A stretch of DNA of 64,000 nucleotides, from NCBI GenBank assembly GCA_039028635.1, contig JBCCHV010000002.1, positions 1 to 64,000 of the forward strand. The letters are read 5' to 3'. Shown piece by piece: positions 23,769 to 34,585 of the stretch; position 1 is the stretch's first letter; every line of letters begins with the position of its first letter. Source of the stretch: Acidobacteriota bacterium (GTDB lineage Bacteria; Acidobacteriota; Thermoanaerobaculia; Multivoradales; JBCCEF01). The position numbers and the translations under genes are program-made. The notes beneath the pieces are model-generated. The model was given only the letters and a program-made list of their open reading frames with translations, was not told the origin of the DNA and searched no databases.

Positions 23769-25550
23769 CTAGAGGGAGGGATCCCAGTCCCAGGCCCGCA
23801 TCAGGCCGCGCGAGGGGCAGCGGTCAGGATCGGAGAATCCCGACGGCTCGCCGGCGAAGGCCTCGACGAACTCGTCCCGACCGTCGCCATCGAGGTCACG
23901 CAGCATGACCCGGTAGCCACGGCACTTGCCGGGTGCGTCGGCGATCTCGGGCGAGAGCTCTTCGACCATCTCCCCTCCCCCGGCACCGAGAAACACGCGG
24001 GTCTCGCCGTCGCGGGTGAGGGCCACCAGGTCGCGCTCGCCGTCACCGTCGAGGTCGCCGGCACCGAGGGCGAAGTAGGAGTTCTTGCTCTCGTCCGCCG
24101 TGATCGTGCGCCGCTGCCAACCGTCGCCCCCACGATTGAAGATCAGGTCGATACCGGTCCACCAACCGGAATCGACCTTGGTGAGATAGGAAAGGGCCAG
24201 ATCCCGGCGGCCATCGCCATCGAAGTCATCGGTGGTGATCGAGCGGACATAGGAGCCGGGGCGAATCGAATCGACCTTCACCGCCTCCCAGGAGGCACCG
24301 GCAGCGCCTCCGAGGTTGACCACCTCGCGCACGCCATAGGTACTCGACGAGGTCACGAAGTCGGGCCGGCCATCGTCATCGAGATGCGCCACTTCGATGG
24401 CGTCGCCAAAGATCTGGTCCGACTCGAGCCCCTGATCGAGCCGCTGCCAGGTGCCGTCGCCACCATTGATGAAGATGGCGGTGCCGTAGGAGGCCGACTC
24501 CGCCAAGCCCATCTGACGGCCACGGTTGTCGCTCAGCGGACGCGGCCCTTCGCCGAAGGCCAGAATGTCCGGTAGCTGGTCGCCATTCCAATCGGTCGTG
24601 GTGACCGCCCGCGACGAGAAGCCGCTGGCGTCGTCTCCCCGGCCGGGGAACTGAATGTCGATGCCACGACTCCAGGGCACGAAGCCGCCCTTGCCATCAC
24701 CGACCGTCGCCAGCACCCCCTGGATGTGGAGGCCGAAGACGACGTCCTGGATGCCGTCGCGATTGAAGTCGTCCACCGCCACATCGCCATAGGAATAAAG
24801 TCCCTGGGGAAACTTGGCCTCGCGCCAGGGCCGCCAGTTGCCGGCGCCATCACCCAGAAAGATGATCGGCCCCAGTCCACCCATTTTGCGCGGCGGTCCG
24901 TGGACCACGTCGAGGAAGCCATCGCCATCCATATCGGCGATATCGAAACCGTTGCGCCACTGGCCCTGGTCCGGGAGACCGGAACCGAAGCTCTTGAACC
25001 GCAGCCGGTCGTCGGACACCAGCTCGTGCTGGAAGGTCTCCCGCAGAGCCGCGAACCTCGCCTCGTCCTTGAGCTTGATGTTGAGGGGCGCCACCGGCTT
25101 GAAGACTCGCACGACGAGCTCCTGCTCGCGTTCTTCTTCGAGCTCGTAGAAGTCGTAGCCGTAGCGCACCTTGGTCTTGGCATCGTCGGCGTAGTACCAA
25201 CGCTCGGCATCCTTGGGCAGAGACTTGAGGTAATACTCCCGCCCCGCCTCATCCTTCAGCCAGTTCTCATCGGGAGGCTGATTGACCTCACGCTCCATCG
25301 CCTTGCGTCGTTCGGTGCCGCCCTCGACACCGACGCCGAAGCGGCGAATCAACTCCTCTTCCTCGGTGGGCACCGTGGTCTCAGCGGAGGCGGACTCAGT
25401 GGCCGGCTCCGCAGCGGTCGGCTCGTCGCCCGCAGCTTCCGCCACGGTCTTCGGCGCTGGCGCCTGAGAGCAAGCGGACAGAAGGGCCAGAATGGCGCCC
25501 GTCAACAACAGTCGCCAGGGCGCTCGGGGGTTGTCAGGTCGCAGCATCAT
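23769..25550 (-). CDS. FG-GAP/VCBS-repeat lipoprotein
   Basis: A 593-residue putative lipoprotein: hydrophobic RLLLTGAILALLSAC gives a lipobox with Cys about residue 27, followed by a Pro/Ala/Glu/Thr-rich linker. From about residue 200 to the end there are at least seven calcium-binding-loop repeats of FG-GAP type, such as IADMDGDGFLDVV, VDDFNRDGIQDVV, TTDDFDGDGRRDLAL, AGDLDGDGERDLVAL and LRDLDGDGRDEFVEA, which build an integrin-like beta-propeller. Likely an outer-membrane or periplasm-facing binding protein. It sits in the minus-strand run between the exporter permease and ATPase genes. Confidence 0.85.
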   Translation of the reverse strand: MMLRPDNPRAPWRLLLTGAILALLSACSQAPAPKTVAEAAGDEPTAAEPATESASAETTVPTEEEELIRRFGVGVEGGTERRKAMEREVNQPPDENWLKDEAGREYYLKSLPKDAERWYYADDAKTKVRYGYDFYELEEEREQELVVRVFKPVAPLNIKLKDEARFAALRETFQHELVSDDRLRFKSFGSGLPDQGQWRNGFDIADMDGDGFLDVVHGPPRKMGGLGPIIFLGDGAGNWRPWREAKFPQGLYSYGDVAVDDFNRDGIQDVVFGLHIQGVLATVGDGKGGFVPWSRGIDIQFPGRGDDASGFSSRAVTTTDWNGDQLPDILAFGEGPRPLSDNRGRQMGLAESASYGTAIFINGGDGTWQRLDQGLESDQIFGDAIEVAHLDDDGRPDFVTSSSTYGVREVVNLGGAAGASWEAVKVDSIRPGSYVRSITTDDFDGDGRRDLALSYLTKVDSGWWTGIDLIFNRGGDGWQRRTITADESKNSYFALGAGDLDGDGERDLVALTRDGETRVFLGAGGGEMVEELSPEIADAPGKCRGYRVMLRDLDGDGRDEFVEAFAGEPSGFSDPDRCPSRGLMRAWDWDPSL

Positions 25551-25692: not shown

Positions 25693-26466
25693 TCAGATCT
25701 CATCGACGAAGGCGCCCCTGAGACGGCGGAACACCCAACCGCCCAAGCCCAGGAGAAGCACGGCGAAGACGGTCAGACCGATCAACGGCGGCCACGGCGG
25801 CCAGCCCGGCGGCCCGAGCAAGGCATGCCGGTAGAGGCCCACCAAAGGGGTCAGGGGATTCAGGTGAAGGAACCCAACGAAGGAGTCCGGCACCAAATCC
25901 AGCGGGTAGACGATCGGCGTCAGATAGAACCAAGCATTGAACACCATGCCCAGAATCTGCTGGATATCCCGAAAGAACACGTGCAGAGCCGCCAACAGCA
26001 GCCCCAGGCCAAGGGCGATGGCGGTCTGCAGCGCCATCGCCGGAATCAGCAGCGGCAGGGTCACCCAGCTCAGGGCACCGGTGGCCGCCAAGATCACCAG
26101 AAAGACGCCGAGAGCGATCAGTTGGTGAAGCAGAGCCGCCACCACCACCGCCAGCACCAGGATCTGCGAGGGAAAACGTAGCTTCTTGACCAGGTCGGCG
26201 CTGTCGGTGATCGCCGTCGCCGAGCGCAGAACTCCCTCGTGGACCGCCAGCCACGGCAGCAGGCCGGCGAAGAGAAAGACGGCGAAGCTCTCGGTGCGCT
26301 CGCCCACCAGCGAGATCTTCATCACCGTGCTGAACACGAAGGTGAAGAGGATCAGGGTCCAGAGGGGCTGCAGCAGCGACCAGAGAAAGCCCAAGACGGA
26401 GCCCGCATAGCGCCCTTGAAAATCGCGCTTGACGAGCTCCTTGAGCAAGAACAGATCGCGGGCCAT
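25693..26466 (-). CDS. wzm: Polysaccharide ABC exporter permease (Wzm type, ABC-2)
   Basis: A 257-residue ABC-2 membrane protein with six hydrophobic segments. Seen: the cytoplasmic start FLLKELVKRDFQGRYAGS, then VLGFLWSLLQPLWTLILFTF, both hallmarks of O-antigen/teichoic-acid exporter permeases, and the late NAWFYLTPIVYPLDLVPDS, a family signature. The ATG at 26466 fits the normal length; the longer frame upstream is mostly non-coding in character. It should pair with Wzt encoded at 16587-17813 to move lipid-linked polysaccharide outward. The divergent XRE gene starts about 200 bases away. Confidence 0.91.
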   Translation of the reverse strand: MARDLFLLKELVKRDFQGRYAGSVLGFLWSLLQPLWTLILFTFVFSTVMKISLVGERTESFAVFLFAGLLPWLAVHEGVLRSATAITDSADLVKKLRFPSQILVLAVVVAALLHQLIALGVFLVILAATGALSWVTLPLLIPAMALQTAIALGLGLLLAALHVFFRDIQQILGMVFNAWFYLTPIVYPLDLVPDSFVGFLHLNPLTPLVGLYRHALLGPPGWPPWPPLIGLTVFAVLLLGLGGWVFRRLRGAFVDEI

Positions 26467-26603: not shown

Positions 26604-26622
26604 CTATGCCGATTTGACATAG
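26604..26622 (+). promoter_or_regulatory. Candidate operator dyad, CTATG-N9-CATAG
   Basis: A perfect 5-bp inverted repeat separated by 9 bases, just downstream of the candidate promoter and 47 bases before the XRE gene. Size and position fit an operator for a dimeric HTH regulator, so autoregulation by one of the two encoded XRE proteins is plausible but unproven. Confidence 0.4.
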
Positions 26623-26668: not shown

Positions 26669-27043
26669 ATGCCTCCACTTCCCAAAACGCGCCAGGTCCA
26701 ACTGGTGGGCCAGAAGATTCGACAGCTGCGCAAGGAGCGTCGGCTGACGCAGACCGAGCTGTCGTCGCGGATCGGCATTCAGCAGTCCGATCTGTCGCGC
26801 ATGGAGAAGGGCGAGTACCGGGTCAGCCTGGACACCCTGTTTCGCATCCTCGCCGAGTTCAAGATGGGCATCGGCGAGTTCTTCGAAGACCTCAATCACG
26901 AGACCATCACACCTCGCGATGTCCAGTTGATCCGCCAGTTCCGGCAGCTCGACGACGACGCCCAGCGAGAGGTCGAAGAGTTCATCGCATTCAAGCGCGG
27001 CCAGCGAGACGATGCCGGCTACGCCCTGGAGGTCGATCCGTGA
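26669..27043 (+). CDS. XRE-family HTH regulator (cassette 1)
   Basis: A 124-residue DNA-binding protein. Residues about 13-68 are a Cro/C1-type helix-turn-helix: IRQLRKERRLTQTELSSRIG then QQSDLSRMEKGEYRVSLDTL. The tail continues with an acidic helix containing EVEEFIAFKRG, a motif that recurs as HEIEEFVAFRHS in the second cassette's XRE protein. Its stop overlaps the GTG of the following TPR gene (GTGA), so the two are almost certainly co-translated. HTH and TPR on one chain are known from RRNPP peptide-sensing regulators; here they are separate proteins. Target genes are unknown. Confidence 0.9.
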   Translation: MPPLPKTRQVQLVGQKIRQLRKERRLTQTELSSRIGIQQSDLSRMEKGEYRVSLDTLFRILAEFKMGIGEFFEDLNHETITPRDVQLIRQFRQLDDDAQREVEEFIAFKRGQRDDAGYALEVDP

Positions 27044-27945
27044 CCGCCCTCGAGTCCGCCTACGAAGCCCTCCGCGAGCGTGGCCTGAAGGCCATCACGG
27101 CGGGAGATCACGAAGCCGCCCACGGCCACTTCGAGGCCGCCCTCGAGATGGCGCGGCAGATCGCCCGGCCGACACTGGTCGATCGCGCTTCCTGCAACCT
27201 CGCCGCGGTCGAGATCGAGCTGCGCCGCGGGGACGGCAAAGTTCCCCAGCTGCGCCAGATCCTGATGCGCAACGGCAATCCGCGCGGCGGCGATCCCGCC
27301 AACTGCTTCCTGGCGGCCTACAACATCGCCCGCCACTACGAGCTCAGCAAGGACTACCGCAAGGGCCTGTTCTATGCCCAGGTGGCCCGCGACCGCGCGC
27401 AAGCCATCGGCAATACCGAATGGCGCGCCTCGAGCTTCAACCAGATCGGCGACCTGCTGCTGGCGCGCAGCTACTCGCGGCGCGCCACGGCGGCCTACTC
27501 GAGCGCCCTCGAGCTGCTCGCTCCGGGCCCGAGCCTGCGCCGCGGCCAGATTCTCGACAATCTCGGCTACTGCCTGATCCTCGAGGGCGACACCCGCACC
27601 GGATTCCGTCATCTCTACGAGAGTGTTCGCCTGCTGCGCCGCCTGGGGGCGCGCACGGCTCTGGTGTCGGTCCACCTCGACCTCTGCTTCGCGCTGCTCG
27701 AGAACGATCGGCCGCGGCTGGCCCGGGGGCATGGCCAGCGGGCTCTCGCCTTGGCCGAGGATCTCGGCCTCGACGAGTCGATCAAGAACGCCCTCTACCT
27801 ACTCGGCGAGGCCCACACCATGAATGGAGATCGCGGCGCCGGCCGGGACTGCTTCGAGCGCCTCGAGCAGTTCTATCCCGACGCTCAGTTCTGCGACCTC
27901 CTGGCGGCCGTCGATGTTCGCCGCATCATCAATCTGAAGGCCTAG
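27040..27945 (+). CDS. TPR protein of XRE/TPR/secreted cassette 1
   Basis: A 301-residue cytoplasmic all-helical protein with repeated TPR-like pairs (HEAAHGHFEAALEMARQIAR, CFLAAYNIARHYELSKDYRK, WRASSFNQIGDLLLARSY, LYLLGEAHTMNGDRGAGRD). It starts with GTG overlapping the XRE stop. It has exactly the same length as its paralogue at 29790 and the same ending (DVRRIINLKA versus DVRKMINLRA). Likely a peptide- or protein-binding partner of the XRE regulator, by analogy with RRNPP receptors; this is inference. The secreted-protein gene begins five bases after its stop. Confidence 0.87.
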   Translation: MTALESAYEALRERGLKAITAGDHEAAHGHFEAALEMARQIARPTLVDRASCNLAAVEIELRRGDGKVPQLRQILMRNGNPRGGDPANCFLAAYNIARHYELSKDYRKGLFYAQVARDRAQAIGNTEWRASSFNQIGDLLLARSYSRRATAAYSSALELLAPGPSLRRGQILDNLGYCLILEGDTRTGFRHLYESVRLLRRLGARTALVSVHLDLCFALLENDRPRLARGHGQRALALAEDLGLDESIKNALYLLGEAHTMNGDRGAGRDCFERLEQFYPDAQFCDLLAAVDVRRIINLKA

Positions 27946-27949
27946 AACG

Positions 27950-29314
27950 ATGAAGCTGCGCACCCTCACCGCCCTCGCTCTGCTGCTCGCCAGCCCACTC
28001 CTGGCAAGCCCCAAGGACGCCGTCGTCGGCATCGACGGCGAAGTCTACGTCGCCCGCTCCGGCAACGCCTCGAACCTATTCCCGGGTCTCGCCGGCACCT
28101 CCGACGGCGAGTTCAACGCCCTGGCCGTCGACATCTCCTTCGCCGACGGCACCAGCCGCCGCATGGGCGTGCCCCACTCCGTGGGTCCCGAGTTCGAGCA
28201 GAATCCACAACTCTTCTTCGAAGACGCCAGCGGCACGGTGTTCTTGATCTGGGAGAGCTGGAAGAACTACATCCATCCCAGCCTCAAGCTGGTCGGCTTG
28301 AAGGATGGCGCATGGTCACCGGTGGTGACCATCCAGGGCAATCGCTTCAGCCCCAAGGGCGCTCCCAAGCTCCAGATCACCCGCGACGAGTACATGGTGC
28401 CGGCCGAGGACGGCGGCACTCGCCTGCAGCACCGCACCATCCTCCACCTCACCTGGTGGGAGGAGACCGGTGACGGCGACAAAGTGCTCTACGCTCCGGT
28501 CACTCTGATCGATGGCAGCTTCCCGTCGGACAGCCCCCCGACCATCGAGCTCAACGACTTCGACCCGGCGGCGGACGGCGAGGGGGCCGGACTGGCGGCG
28601 CGCTTGGCGCGCTACCCGAACCTGCAGCCGGGCCGCGACGAAGCCAGCCTGACGGCGATCTTCGCCAATCCGCGCAGCGACCGCGTGGTCAGCTTCGAGC
28701 TCGACGTCGTGCCCGGTGAGATCGTCGGCATCGGAGACGCCGCCCGCTCCCACATCATCGAGATCGGAGCTCACGGCGGCGGCGGAATCCAATCGATCAG
28801 CAGCGCCGCCCGCTCCCACATCATCGAGATCGGAGCCCGCCTCGACGTCGAGCCGCGCTTCGCCCGCTTCCTCGCCGACCAGACGCGCGACGAGATCCTC
28901 GCCCTCGGCGACGCCGGAGACAGCCTCGAGATCGAATCGCTGGCGGAAACGGCCCGCTCCCACATCATCGAGATCGGGGCTCGGATGTCACGCCCCGGCA
29001 TGGAGCGCTCCAACTCCCTTCCGGCCACCTTCCTCGAGGTGTCCCTCGGCGAGGTGCCCCACGGCAATCACCTGATTCGCTTGCTGCCGATCGCCGACTG
29101 GGCAGCTCCCGAGCTCGAGGACGGCCTGGAGCCGGTGCTCTATGGGTCGGCCGATGGTGACGAGCTACTGATCGCGGCGGACGACGAGAACAGCGTCCGC
29201 TACATCGAAACCCGGCCCGAGGGTTGGAGCGGTCCCCGCAACCTGACCTTCGACGACACCATCGATCGCGCCCGCGCCCATTCGATTCTCGAAGAGCGCG
29301 CGCGCCATCGTTGA
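27950..29314 (+). CDS. Secreted protein with repeated ARSHIIEIGA motif (cassette 1)
   Basis: A 454-residue exported protein (signal peptide TLTALALLLASPLLAS). Residues about 22-200 are beta-rich, with paralogous landmarks LIWESW and ILHLTWWEETGDGDKVLYAP. Residues about 264-345 hold three near-identical AARSHIIEIGA(R/H) units (at 264, 286 and 335) and a degenerate TRDEILALGD. The C-terminal part resumes a beta pattern (DELLIAADDENSVRYIETR). No catalytic motif is visible. It is paralogous to the protein at 30700. It may be a surface protein with helical inserts, or a precursor releasing short peptides; neither is demonstrated. Confidence 0.83.
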   Translation: MKLRTLTALALLLASPLLASPKDAVVGIDGEVYVARSGNASNLFPGLAGTSDGEFNALAVDISFADGTSRRMGVPHSVGPEFEQNPQLFFEDASGTVFLIWESWKNYIHPSLKLVGLKDGAWSPVVTIQGNRFSPKGAPKLQITRDEYMVPAEDGGTRLQHRTILHLTWWEETGDGDKVLYAPVTLIDGSFPSDSPPTIELNDFDPAADGEGAGLAARLARYPNLQPGRDEASLTAIFANPRSDRVVSFELDVVPGEIVGIGDAARSHIIEIGAHGGGGIQSISSAARSHIIEIGARLDVEPRFARFLADQTRDEILALGDAGDSLEIESLAETARSHIIEIGARMSRPGMERSNSLPATFLEVSLGEVPHGNHLIRLLPIADWAAPELEDGLEPVLYGSADGDELLIAADDENSVRYIETRPEGWSGPRNLTFDDTIDRARAHSILEERARHR

Positions 29315-29364: not shown

Positions 29365-29691
29365 ATGGCGGTAGGCCCCGATTCGGGCCAGATCGAGCTT
29401 TTCGGTCGCACCCTTCGCCGGCTGCGCAAGGAGCGCGGTCTCCAGCCCGCCGAATTGGCAGCTCGAGTCGGCATCCAAACTGCCGATCTCGTGCGAATGG
29501 AAAAGGGAGGCTTCCGCATCGCTCTCGATACCCTGGCTTCGATCGCCCGCGAGCTCGGCGTGGGTTTGCCGGAGCTGGTTGCGGACGCCGAACGTGAACC
29601 GAGACGCGCACGACGGGAACGAAAGACGAAACGCCAAGGCGACGAACACGAGATCGAAGAATTCGTCGCTTTCCGACATTCGGTGAGCTGA
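29365..29691 (+). CDS. XRE-family HTH regulator (cassette 2)
   Basis: A 108-residue paralogue of the XRE protein at 26669. The HTH is visible as LRRLRKERGLQPAELAARVG and QTADLVRMEKGGFRIALDTL, with the same R-M-E-K-G turn. A basic linker (RRARRERKTKRQ) is followed by the shared acidic tail EIEEFVAFRH. It precedes the second TPR gene by about 100 bases rather than overlapping it. No obvious promoter lies in the 50 bases upstream, so it is probably transcribed with cassette 1. Confidence 0.87.
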   Translation: MAVGPDSGQIELFGRTLRRLRKERGLQPAELAARVGIQTADLVRMEKGGFRIALDTLASIARELGVGLPELVADAEREPRRARRERKTKRQGDEHEIEEFVAFRHSVS

Positions 29692-29789: not shown

Positions 29790-30695
29790 ATGACGCAAAG
29801 CGATCCCATGAGTTGTTATCAGAATCTGCGGGAGGAGGCCGGCACCGCCCTCGAGGCTGGACGCCTCGAAGAGGCCCTCGAGCTCTATGAGGAGTCTTGG
29901 CAGGTCGCCCAAGAGCTGGGCGAGCGCGAGTTGGTCGATCGCTCCTTCTGCAACCGCAGCGCCGTCCTCATCTCCCTCGGCCGAGGCGACGAGGTGCTGC
30001 GCTCCCTGCGCGAGATCCTGAGCAGCTCTTCGAACACCGTCAATCGGCGTCTGGCGGCCTACAACGTGGCCCGCATCTACGAAATCCGCAAGGACCGCAA
30101 GAAGGCCCTGCTCTACGCCCGCATCGCCCGCGGCGAGCTGGTCAAGCTGGAGTCGCCGGAGCCCGAATGGCGCGCCTCGAGCCACAACCTGATGGGCAAC
30201 CTGCTGATCGCCGAGAGCCGCTTCGAAGAAGCCGCCATGGAGTACGAGAACGCCCTCTCCGCCCAGGCCGACGCCCCGGAGCTGCGGCGCGCCATGATCT
30301 GGGGCAATCTCGGCTACTCGTACATCTCCTTGGGCCGCCACTTCGCCGGTTTCGACCTGCTCTTCCGCAGCCTGCGAGTGTTCCGGCGCACCGGCGCGGA
30401 GCGCGCCTTGATGGTCGCCCACCTCGACCTCTGCTTCGCTCACCTCGAGGTGTCGCGCTACCGCCACGCCTGGCGCCACGGCCATCGCGCCCTCGAGCTG
30501 GCCGAGAAGCTGGGCGACCTCGACGTGCTCAAGAACTCCCTTTACCTGCTTGGCGAGGCGGCCAATCTGCTCGGCCTCGAAGCCGACGCCCGGGATTGCT
30601 TTGATCGCCTGCAGCGCTACTTCCCGGACCTGCCCTTTCTCACCGAGTTCCTGTTCGCGATCGACGTCCGCAAGATGATCAACTTGAGGGCCTGA
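29790..30695 (+). CDS. TPR protein of XRE/TPR/secreted cassette 2
   Basis: A 301-residue TPR-like protein paralogous over its full length to the one at 27040: RLAAYNVARIYEIRKDRKKA, EWRASSHNLMGNLLIAES, VAHLDLCFAHLEVSRYRHAW and LYLLGEAANLLGLEADARDC align directly with that protein. It begins MTQSDPMSCYQNL; the ATG at 29790 or the one six codons later could be used. The stop is four bases before the secreted-protein gene. Expected to bind a partner or peptide in the cytoplasm; ligand unknown. Confidence 0.86.
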   Translation: MTQSDPMSCYQNLREEAGTALEAGRLEEALELYEESWQVAQELGERELVDRSFCNRSAVLISLGRGDEVLRSLREILSSSSNTVNRRLAAYNVARIYEIRKDRKKALLYARIARGELVKLESPEPEWRASSHNLMGNLLIAESRFEEAAMEYENALSAQADAPELRRAMIWGNLGYSYISLGRHFAGFDLLFRSLRVFRRTGAERALMVAHLDLCFAHLEVSRYRHAWRHGHRALELAEKLGDLDVLKNSLYLLGEAANLLGLEADARDCFDRLQRYFPDLPFLTEFLFAIDVRKMINLRA

Positions 30696-30699
30696 TGAC

Positions 30700-32070
30700 A
30701 TGCGCCGGTTCTACTTCACGATTCTGCTTCTAGGCCTTGTCCTGTTCGCCGGCACCGCTGCCGCCGAACAGCCCACCAGCCGTGCCCTCGGCGCCGATGG
30801 CACGCTCTACCAAATCCTTCACGGCCGCTACGGTGACATTTTCCCCGGCGGCGAAATCGCTCCGCCCGAGAACCAGGTTCTCGCCCTGCGGGTGACCCAG
30901 CACGACGGCGTCGTGCGCACGGTGCTGGTTCCGGGATCGGCCGGCCCCCAGCTCGAAAACCATCCCCGCCTGGTGATCTCGGACAACGTCCACGTCCTGT
31001 GGGAGAGCCGAGGCGCTACCAACAAGCTGATTCTCGCCACCTTCGGCGGTCAGTCCTGGGGCGCCAACGTGCTGGTCTCGAACCTCCGCACGGTCGACCG
31101 CTCGACCTCTCGCCTGACGGTGACCCGAGATTCCTACGAGATTCTGCACGACGACGACACCCGCACGGTCCAAGAGCGCACCCTGCTGCACGTCGTGTGG
31201 TCCGAGACCCTGGTCAACCAAGGCACCCAGATTCACTACGCTCCGGTGGTCCTCGAGGAGGGTCTCTACCTCGGCGCCCACGCCATTTACCAGCCGGTGG
31301 ACTATCTACCGGATGATCGCCCGGTCAGCGAGACCCCGGTGTCGAGCAAGCTCCTCCAGACGCCGACCGTACGACCGGGCACCAATGCCGGTACGGTGGT
31401 CGTGGCCTTCGTCGATCCGGTGTCCGGTCAGCTCACGTCGATGGACTTCCGCGTGCTGCCGGGCGAGCTCAGCCATCTCGCCGAAATCGTGCGCGAGACC
31501 ATCGTCCAGGTCGGCGAGAGCCTCGACCTCAGCGATCCCACGAGCCTCTCGGTGCTGGTCGGCAGCACGCGTCACCAGCTCATCGATGTCGGCGCCCGTC
31601 TGCATCAGGACCTCCTCCAGGGACTGGCGGACCAGGTCGAAGCCTACGTCATGGCGCGAGGCTGTGGGCCGCAGTGCAACGTCGAAGGCCTCGCCCAGGG
31701 GGCGTACCGCCACATGCTCGAGGCGGCGGTCCAGTGGACCGAGCTGGATGTCGTGGCGGTGGCCGAAGGCACCCGCCATCAGCTGATCGATGTCGGTGCC
31801 CGCATCAACGCCGACATCGGCCCCATCTCGCTTCATCTGCGCGTCCGCCCGACAGCCCAGCGTCCGCTTCCGGAGGTCGGCTCGGAGAACCTCGCCATCT
31901 ACCTGTCGAGCAGCGGCGAGCACTTCCTGATCGCATGGGAGAACGAAGGCAACGTCTTCTTCCGGGAGACCGTCGCCGAAGGCTGGAACCCGGTTTATCA
32001 CCTCGGGGAAGACGGCGGTGTCGAGAGCGTTCGCGCTCTGCTCGAGAACCGCGTCGACAACCGCCAGTAG
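30700..32070 (+). CDS. Secreted protein with repeated TRHQLIDVGAR motif (cassette 2)
   Basis: A 456-residue exported protein (signal peptide FTILLLGLVLFAGTAAA), paralogous to the protein at 27950. Shared landmarks: VHVLWESRG, LLHVVWSETL, IHYAPVVLE, and a similar C-terminal beta segment (SSGEHFLIAWENEGNVFFR). The central region has two exact TRHQLIDVGAR units (residues 290 and 358) and a degenerate VRETIVQVGES upstream. The two exact units differ at six synonymous positions in 33 bases and none non-synonymous, suggesting protein-level selection. Function unknown. Confidence 0.83.
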   Translation: MRRFYFTILLLGLVLFAGTAAAEQPTSRALGADGTLYQILHGRYGDIFPGGEIAPPENQVLALRVTQHDGVVRTVLVPGSAGPQLENHPRLVISDNVHVLWESRGATNKLILATFGGQSWGANVLVSNLRTVDRSTSRLTVTRDSYEILHDDDTRTVQERTLLHVVWSETLVNQGTQIHYAPVVLEEGLYLGAHAIYQPVDYLPDDRPVSETPVSSKLLQTPTVRPGTNAGTVVVAFVDPVSGQLTSMDFRVLPGELSHLAEIVRETIVQVGESLDLSDPTSLSVLVGSTRHQLIDVGARLHQDLLQGLADQVEAYVMARGCGPQCNVEGLAQGAYRHMLEAAVQWTELDVVAVAEGTRHQLIDVGARINADIGPISLHLRVRPTAQRPLPEVGSENLAIYLSSSGEHFLIAWENEGNVFFRETVAEGWNPVYHLGEDGGVESVRALLENRVDNRQ

Positions 32071-33223: not shown

Positions 33224-34585
33224 TCAGCGTCCGGCGGTGGCCGTCGACACGGAGCGCGACGGCGGCGGCGCACTCTCGGCGGCCACCACCGTGTCCGGCA
33301 GCGGAGCCGAGCCCAGGCCCACTCCGCGCTCCAGGCTGTCGCGACAACGATCACGCCAGGCGTAGAACTGATCGAGCTCGGCCACCGCAATCGGCTGCGC
33401 CGGCACATTGCGCAGCGAGAGGGGATCGATCCAGCGACCGTTCTTCTGCACCCGGTAGTCGAGATGGGGTCCGGAGCTCAAACCCGTATTGCCCGAATAG
33501 GCGATCACCTCGCCCTGCTCGACGCGGCGGCCGGGAGCGACCCCCTTGGCGAAGCGCGACAGGTGCAGGTAGGCGGTCAAGTAGCGGTTGGCGTGGCGCA
33601 CCTTGACCACCTTGCCACCACCCTTGTTCCAGCCGGCGAAGGTCACCACCCCGCTCGCCGTCGCCCGCACCGGCGTTCCCACCGGGGTGCCGTAATCGAC
33701 ACCGTAGTGCGGCCGGTACTTTTTCAGGACCGGATGGAAGCGCCGCAAATTGAAGCGCGAGGTGACCCGCGAGTAGCGCAGCGGCGAACGCAGGAACATC
33801 TTCTCGAGGGGACGTCCGTCGGGACCGTAATAGCCCCCGTCGCCGGAGCCGTAGCGAAAGGCCTCGAGGGTGCGGCCACCGTTCTGGTAGCTCAGCGCCA
33901 AGACGTTGCCCAGACCGTGGTAGCGACCGTCGAGGTAGACCTCTTCGAACAGCACCTCGAACTCGTCTCCCACCCGCAGATCACGGTTGAAGTCGAGATC
34001 CCACTGCAGCACTTCGGCCATCTTGAAGGACAGCTTGCCGACTCCACCGCTGGCCACGATGGCGCTCTCCAGGGCCCCCTCGAGCTCGCCCCGAATGGCG
34101 CGCGTTTCGACGCGCCGCTCGAACGGTGTCCAGGTGGTCGCCCATCCTTCCGAAGCCCGCGCCAGGTGCACCTTGCCGCTGTCGCCGATCCGCATCGTCA
34201 GGCGTTCCGGTCGCGAATCGGCCCCCAGGTAATAGGAGACCGCCTGTCCCGGGCGCAGGCGTCGCACGTCGAGGTACTCCTCGAGAGCGAGGATCGCTCC
34301 CGACGCCTCCGACGCCTCGAGCCCGGTGCTCTGCAGCAAACCGCCGAGGGTGTCTCCGGACTCCATCGTCACGCGCAACGGAATCGCCGAGCCATCGACC
34401 GCCGGCAAGGGCAGTGGATCGAGGCCGGCCAGGGCCTCGTCGAAGGGCAGCGGATTCGGCAGCGGAAAGGGCGACTGCGCAAACTCGGTGAGACGTCGCT
34501 GCGACAGCATCAGCACCAGGGCCACGGCGAGTAGAGCCAGAGGGAGAGCCCAGCGCAGGACGGAGATCTGAGGGCGACGCGTCAT
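33224..34585 (-). CDS. M23-family (LytM-like) peptidase homologue, membrane-anchored
   Basis: A 453-residue protein with an N-terminal membrane anchor (WALPLALLAVALVLMLS), an OapA/LysM-like segment (VTMESGDTLGGLLQSTGLEA) and a C-terminal M23 domain. The zinc motif HxxxD is present (HYGVDYGTPVGTPV), but the usual HxH is GPHLDYRV, with Asp in place of the zinc-binding His. The fold is intact (GNTGLSSGPHLDYR, NGRWIDPLSL). It may be a variant metal site or a catalytically inactive activator of amidases, as with EnvC/NlpD. Likely acts on or near peptidoglycan in the periplasm. Confidence 0.87.
   Translation of the reverse strand: MTRRPQISVLRWALPLALLAVALVLMLSQRRLTEFAQSPFPLPNPLPFDEALAGLDPLPLPAVDGSAIPLRVTMESGDTLGGLLQSTGLEASEASGAILALEEYLDVRRLRPGQAVSYYLGADSRPERLTMRIGDSGKVHLARASEGWATTWTPFERRVETRAIRGELEGALESAIVASGGVGKLSFKMAEVLQWDLDFNRDLRVGDEFEVLFEEVYLDGRYHGLGNVLALSYQNGGRTLEAFRYGSGDGGYYGPDGRPLEKMFLRSPLRYSRVTSRFNLRRFHPVLKKYRPHYGVDYGTPVGTPVRATASGVVTFAGWNKGGGKVVKVRHANRYLTAYLHLSRFAKGVAPGRRVEQGEVIAYSGNTGLSSGPHLDYRVQKNGRWIDPLSLRNVPAQPIAVAELDQFYAWRDRCRDSLERGVGLGSAPLPDTVVAAESAPPPSRSVSTATAGR

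Follow-up and report, generated by a model that had tools for sequence, protein, structure and literature searches.

Exported proteins of Thermoanaerobaculia (Acidobacteriota) carry copies of a short peptide that co-varies with an adjacent TPR protein, suggesting an RRNPP-like signal in a diderm phylum

What keeps two copies of an 11-residue peptide identical within one exported protein when the DNA that encodes them differs? Exported protein 2, encoded in the window (the whole stretch of 64,000 nucleotides that was analyzed), carries TRHQLIDVGAR twice. An earlier note had reported 11 identical residues and six synonymous codon differences between the two units, and a direct reading of both units reproduced this exactly: unit 1 is encoded by ACG CGT CAC CAG CTC ATC GAT GTC GGC GCC CGT and unit 2 by ACC CGC CAT CAG CTG ATC GAT GTC GGT GCC CGC. 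All six codon differences are synonymous (pS 0.68, pN 0), and because only ~26% of changes would be expected to be silent if changes were random, six silent changes out of six have a probability of ~3e-4. The DNA of either unit had no further occurrence in the 6.28-Mb assembly, and a search for the cassette peptides elsewhere in the genome found no other copies.

The gene for exported protein 2 belongs to a cassette (cassette 2) that follows another of the same layout, cassette 1 (26669-29314), in which an XRE-type HTH gene, a TPR gene, and an exported protein gene succeed one another. The features of the two cassettes are as follows.

26669..27043, + strand, XRE-type HTH protein 1 (HTH1), 124 aa, with a helix-turn-helix that is almost invariant across the order
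27040..27945, + strand, TPR protein 1, 301 aa, proposed receptor of ARSHIIEIG; 4-base overlap with the end of HTH1
27950..29314, + strand, exported protein 1, 454 aa, a paralogue with 28% identity to exported protein 2
28742..28768, + strand, ARSHIIEIG copy 1 of exported protein 1
28808..28834, + strand, ARSHIIEIG copy 2 of exported protein 1
28952..28978, + strand, ARSHIIEIG copy 3 of exported protein 1
29365..29691, + strand, XRE-type HTH protein 2, 108 aa
29790..30695, + strand, TPR protein 2, 301 aa, proposed receptor of TRHQLIDVG
30700..32070, + strand, exported protein 2, 456 aa, with an N-terminal signal-peptide-like stretch, a beta-propeller-like body, and a helical insert (255-347) with the units
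31567..31599, + strand, unit 1 of exported protein 2, TRHQLIDVGAR, residues 290-300, read directly; in the model mostly in helix 280-297
31771..31803, + strand, unit 2 of exported protein 2, TRHQLIDVGAR, residues 358-368, read directly; in the model a loop and the start of strand 361-370

Neither Pfam nor NCBIfam has a match for the exported protein. Relatives were searched in genome contigs with an HTH profile, the exported family itself being short of conserved stretches for a profile, and the family was located in the class Thermoanaerobaculia. By whole-genome search, it is present in 52 of 72 genomes of the order; family f3 of the order is without it. Complete exported proteins are ~320 to 510 aa long, and a simple count found a hydrophobic N terminus in 90 of 94; the same count gave no informative result on the TPR proteins. 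A TPR gene lies directly upstream on the same strand for 93 of the 94 exported genes, and the remaining gene is at a contig end. An XRE gene is found upstream of the TPR gene in many cassettes, does not adjoin it in much of two families of the order, and is elsewhere in the genome in the f4 and f7 members looked at. A PADLOC search for defense systems returned only generic HTH and TPR matches, and the reading of the cassette as a defense system was rejected on that ground.

An exact internal recurrence of one 7- to 14-residue peptide was found in 51 of 62 members of the exported family, always in the same region, and the peptide that recurs varies between proteins (ARVHIVLVG, ARAQVIIIG, IRGNIIDIG, LGNHIVDIG, and others). 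Units are dispersed, ~22 to 90 residues apart in the putative precursor. The recurring unit is not due to chance, since shuffled 150-residue segments never yielded an exact internal repeat of over 6 residues and the longest in the TPR proteins of the same loci was at most 6 residues. Copy-to-copy identity is 0.91 to 1.0 at positions p1 to p9, falls to 0.20 at p10, and is 0.57 just before p1; p1 to p9 served to pick the copies, so the informative part is the fall in identity on each side. Because 4 of 59 peptides carry G instead of R at p2, a cut after the p2 arginine cannot be general. Some members lack a repeated unit (e.g., those of loci L060, L061, L063, L064, and L068). Two loci carry a 9-residue unit twice head to tail, IRTVIIHGG with identical DNA (L062:1229-2599) and IRTEIIASG (L134:3454-5163). 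In a third (L045:4143-5525), the two copies differ by one residue, ARHHVVLVG and ARHHIVLVG, and this protein is perhaps an intermediate in a change of peptide.

Other orders of the class keep the cassette with an exported protein of ~340 residues that has one unit-like segment at the matching place. These single units often stand behind three basic residues (RRR-HMPIFG, RKR-NVIVFG, RRR-HIVLVG), and peptide distance tracks TPR distance among the single-unit relatives (partial Mantel 0.30, P = 0.0005). By inference, multiplication of the unit looks derived in the order of the window. One single-unit relative (L114:3222-4403) has LTIPIG internally and a second copy that is its exact C terminus.

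Selection and DNA copying were compared in genus g4, where 17 genes were examined. Copies within a protein differed at 86 of 152 synonymous codons (57%) and at 1 of 153 residues, and copies taken from different proteins differed at 24% of residues with a synonymous distance of 58%. Pooled over the genus, copies in one protein gave a dN of 0.009 and a dS of 1.66, and the next nine codons were unrelated (dN 1.6). These values indicate that in genus g4 the peptide changes in all copies together without copying of DNA. In the genus of the window, orthologues of cassette 1 have ARSNIIEIG in place of ARSHIIEIG in all three copies, and orthologues of cassette 2 have TRHHLIDIG in place of TRHQLIDVG in both. 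The earlier note had attributed the identity of the units to selection on the peptide and not to copying, a view that free nonsynonymous drift in orthologues would have refuted. No such drift was seen, as orthologues change in all copies at once, and the dN and dS of units over relatives uphold the claim for cassette 2 and genus g4. The synonymous argument cannot be extended to cassette 1, where the three ARSHIIEIG copies are near-identical in DNA (1 to 3 synonymous differences) and recent copying or conversion did act. Neighboring genes thus display two ways of keeping copies alike, the copies being near-identical in DNA in cassette 1 (28742-28978) but not in cassette 2.

If one partner is common to all copies, that partner should co-vary with the peptide. 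In 25 g4 cassettes, the peptide was correlated with the TPR protein given the N-domain of the exported protein (partial Mantel 0.67, P = 0.0005), and its correlation with its own N-domain given the TPR protein was -0.17. Over all 59 cassettes, the values were 0.19 for peptide and TPR protein (P = 0.0015) and 0.11 for peptide and own N-domain (P = 0.07). This comparison of unit variation with variation in the cognate TPR protein supports the suggestion of the earlier note that each cassette has its own specificity. In a column test, ~20 TPR columns each for p3, p7, and p8 were above a z of 4, compared to 0 or 1 in the exported N-domain. With columns numbered as in TPR protein 2 of the window, they include 172, 195, 205-210, and 245 for p3; 87, 113-117, and 131 for p7; and 21, 22, 90, 114, and 151 for p8.

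The resulting code holds in 25 of 25 g4 cassettes. V at p8 occurs with V or I at TPR position 21, F with G, and G with L. L at p7 occurs with C87, A117, and A131, and I or V with W87, S117, and S131. At p3, H occurs with D206, S210, and D or E245, and A, V, I, and H pair with V, T, G, and G, respectively, at TPR position 172. In three g4 genomes, two cassettes coexist whose peptides differ, and each peptide fits the TPR protein beside it. On the N-domain tree, the peptide positions reassort, with at least six changes at p8, three for H at p3, and four for I or V at p3, all concordant, and six independent pairs are allowed for p7. Only two to three independent pairs per trait lie on well-supported branches, so phylogenetic correction is incomplete, and relatedness is only partly accounted for in the permutation P values. 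Among 34 cassettes outside g4, the pairing of p3 with TPR172 ranked 4th and that of p7 with TPR87 ranked 3rd of 283 columns, and the p8 columns did not carry over. Full carry-over of the g4 code to other families was therefore rejected in favor of a partial one.

The TPR protein is predicted to form a superhelix like those of the Rap and NprR receptors. The AlphaFold2 model of TPR protein 2 (pLDDT 96.7) matched RapJ-CSF (Z 25.6), a phage Rap with RRGHTA-type pheromones (25.4), RapF-PhrF (24.8), and NprR-NprX (24.6), with the Rap and NprR complex matches spanning 279 to 289 residues. The fold alone is no proof of a pheromone receptor, because this generic TPR fold also matches LGN of the LGN-Afadin complex, at a higher score (Z 27.2). 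A sequence search with the TPR protein found NprR (E value of 5.8e-6) and Rap3T (2.1e-5), both ranked below many generic TPR proteins, and NCBIfam assigned no RRNPP receptor family to the TPR proteins. A fusion of HTH and TPR domains was sought as a link to the classic RRNPP regulators, but no ORF had both matches; they are in separate genes, often overlapping. Rap proteins likewise have no HTH, so its absence does not exclude a Rap-like mode.

From the TPR consensus assignment, we infer that the co-varying positions 21, 22, 172, and 256 and the invariant N133 and N173 are in or next to the groove face, on the first helices of TPR repeats. Late TPR repeats are linked to the N-terminal end of the peptide and early repeats to its C-terminal end, an arrangement most simply explained by an extended peptide that runs antiparallel. 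A conserved C-terminal tail like DVRKMINLRA, present in nearly all TPR proteins (30660-30695 and 27910-27945 in the window), is itself unit-like (R..I/V.L) and could be a built-in pseudo-ligand.

The model of exported protein 2 (pLDDT 89) shows a propeller-like body and an insert of four helices, and the body had only weak matches among known structures, to propeller proteins with TM-scores of up to ~0.34. The same peptide was modeled differently in its two places, mostly as helix in unit 1 and as loop and strand in unit 2. This suggests that what is conserved is a linear peptide and not a local fold, and different modeled folds of the two units are as expected of a linear ligand. Residues ~261-350 of this protein (31480-31750) also contain degenerate unit-like stretches, such as VRETIVQVGES and YRHMLEAAVQW, on the same ~22-residue register that the two units follow.

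Upstream of cassette 1 lie a candidate operator and a possible output gene.

25693..26466, - strand, ABC-2 permease of the Wzm/KpsM type (polysaccharide export), possible output gene, divergent from HTH1
26604..26622, no strand assigned, palindrome CTATG-CCGATTTGA-CATAG, candidate operator of HTH1

The palindrome sits between HTH1 and the divergent permease gene. The site at 26604-26622 is the only match to the full CTATG-N9-CATAG in the 6.28-Mb assembly, and with this single site, the operator search gave no wider regulon. The shorter ATG-N9-CAT occurs within 160 bases upstream of 21 of 22 XRE genes of the order, compared to 0.5 expected. Of 77 nonredundant loci for which enough DNA was available, 39 have such a permease gene in divergent orientation to the XRE gene, among them loci whose XRE gene has no TPR neighbor. 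It is therefore likely, though not shown, that the XRE protein controls its own operon and polysaccharide export. One SBP_bac_5 gene, for an oligopeptide importer protein, was found in the genome and is the only such importer component found. Behind the permease gene is an FG-GAP repeat lipoprotein-like gene (23769-25550); it may have relatives among the genes that occupy the corresponding place near orphan XRE genes (L142, L146, L150, L158, and L160). Close to the cassettes, beside a GHMP kinase gene, is a gene for an M23 endopeptidase of the ShyC/MepM kind (33224-34585); a similar gene may be near several orphan XRE loci.

Judged from the sequences, the copies are kept identical by selection, change jointly, co-vary with the TPR protein at the level of residues, and are encoded next to it. 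We consider it probable that a short linear peptide derives from the exported protein as its precursor and has a dedicated receptor in the adjacent cytoplasmic TPR protein, forming an RRNPP-like signal in a diderm phylum. The precursor would leave by the Sec route, and cutting would free several units from each. The peptide, with a p3-p9 core of HQLIDVG in cassette 2 and SHIIEIG in cassette 1, may return via an oligopeptide importer, for which the single SBP_bac_5 protein is a candidate. In the TPR groove, it would adopt an extended, antiparallel course, with the N-terminal end at repeats 5 to 7 and the C-terminal end at repeats 1 to 4, and its binding would alter the action of the TPR protein on the XRE protein encoded just upstream. 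The XRE protein is in turn inferred to bind ATG-N9-CAT and to control its own operon and often the divergent polysaccharide-export permease. The cell would thus produce its own peptide signal, with the paralogous cassettes that it holds insulated from one another, and this signal would set the export of cell-surface polysaccharide. Release, re-import, and output of the signal are inferences, since neither release, nor import, nor binding of a peptide has been observed. A propeller-like precursor of ~450 residues, unlike the short RRNPPA precursors, and the two membranes between the peptide and a cytoplasmic receptor both count against this proposal, as do the members that lack a repeated unit and the cassettes whose XRE gene does not adjoin the TPR gene. 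We put only even chances on its fullest form, a diderm pheromone system with a folded propeller-like precursor bearing several copies, a three-position code of size and charge, private channels for each paralogous cassette, and control of polysaccharide export.

Could the copies instead be alike merely through DNA copying between them, without selection on the peptide? Copies near-identical in DNA occur in cassette 1, L030, L031, L048, and L062, and synonymous differences between copies overall number 261 versus the 337 expected for independent codons. In cassette 2 and genus g4, however, synonymous sites are near saturation while residues are identical, and within g4 proteins, the synonymous distance equals that between proteins, so conversion is not what keeps these copies alike. 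As a sole or general cause, gene conversion was rejected and is, to our judgment, extremely improbable; it still contributes in cassette 1 and some other genes. We give scarcely more credit to the idea that the units pair with each other as an amyloid-like or scaffold repeat, with an incidental link to the TPR protein. Short I/V-rich motifs ending in G can self-assemble, and the units do follow a ~22-residue helical register, but self-pairing predicts no residue-specific link to a separate gene, such as was seen in 25 of 25 cassettes. The units co-vary with the TPR gene and not with their own protein body, which led us to reject a structural repeat alone, and the two copies are modeled in different secondary structures.

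The most serious alternative is that the precursor is bound before it is exported. Acting as a secretion chaperone or export gauge, the TPR protein might bind the units while the precursor is still unfolded and pass this information to the XRE protein with no peptide ever released. Gene adjacency, several copies, a cytoplasmic TPR protein, and co-variation are all covered in this way, and no re-import across two membranes is needed. Such sensing leaves unexplained the fast diversification of the peptide into a code matched in size and charge, the different codes of paralogous pairs in one genome, and the RRR or RKR before single units together with the exact C-terminal unit. We hold it to be unlikely, though clearly less so than the two preceding explanations.

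A released peptide read by the adjacent TPR protein, the reading that we prefer, would be a sign that peptide signaling systems of the kind known in Gram-positive bacteria also exist beyond them. Acidobacteriota, abundant members of soil and sediment communities, are difficult to cultivate, and their social behavior is poorly understood. Since the peptide sequences can be read straight from the genomes, their synthesis and testing could start immediately. Natural variants of the receptor code within one genus make the question of how peptide-receptor pairs reach new specificity directly testable.

Among known TPR proteins, the TPR domains of LGN/Pins and kinesin light chain also bind peptide ligands in their groove and are among the top fold matches alongside the Rap receptors, but they are eukaryotic scaffolds without a co-encoded exported peptide. 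RRNPPA systems have been described in Bacillota (PMC10075063, PMC9765709), and a full-text literature search, which did not cover subscription papers and preprints, found nothing on RRNPPA-type systems in Acidobacteriota. As in Rap-Phr, NprR-NprX, PlcR-PapR, and AimR-AimP, a cytoplasmic TPR protein is encoded beside an exported precursor of a short linear peptide; the TPR model matches RapJ-CSF, RapF-PhrF, and NprR-NprX, and peptide and receptor co-vary. The Acidobacteriota cassette differs in its diderm host, in an XRE protein that is separate from the TPR protein, and in a TPR sequence that resembles generic TPR proteins at least as much as it does RRNPPA receptors. Its precursor is propeller-like, 320 to 510 aa long, and has dispersed units, whereas RRNPPA precursors are tens of residues long. 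Repeated pheromones in one precursor are known in RRNPPA systems (PMC9765709, PMC11343458). The tandem Phr propeptides of phages phi3T and phi105 (PMC11343458) likewise hold several identical or near-identical copies of the mature peptide per precursor; those are small Bacillota precursors, whereas the Acidobacteriota copies sit in a large folded protein and remain identical although their synonymous sites have diverged widely.
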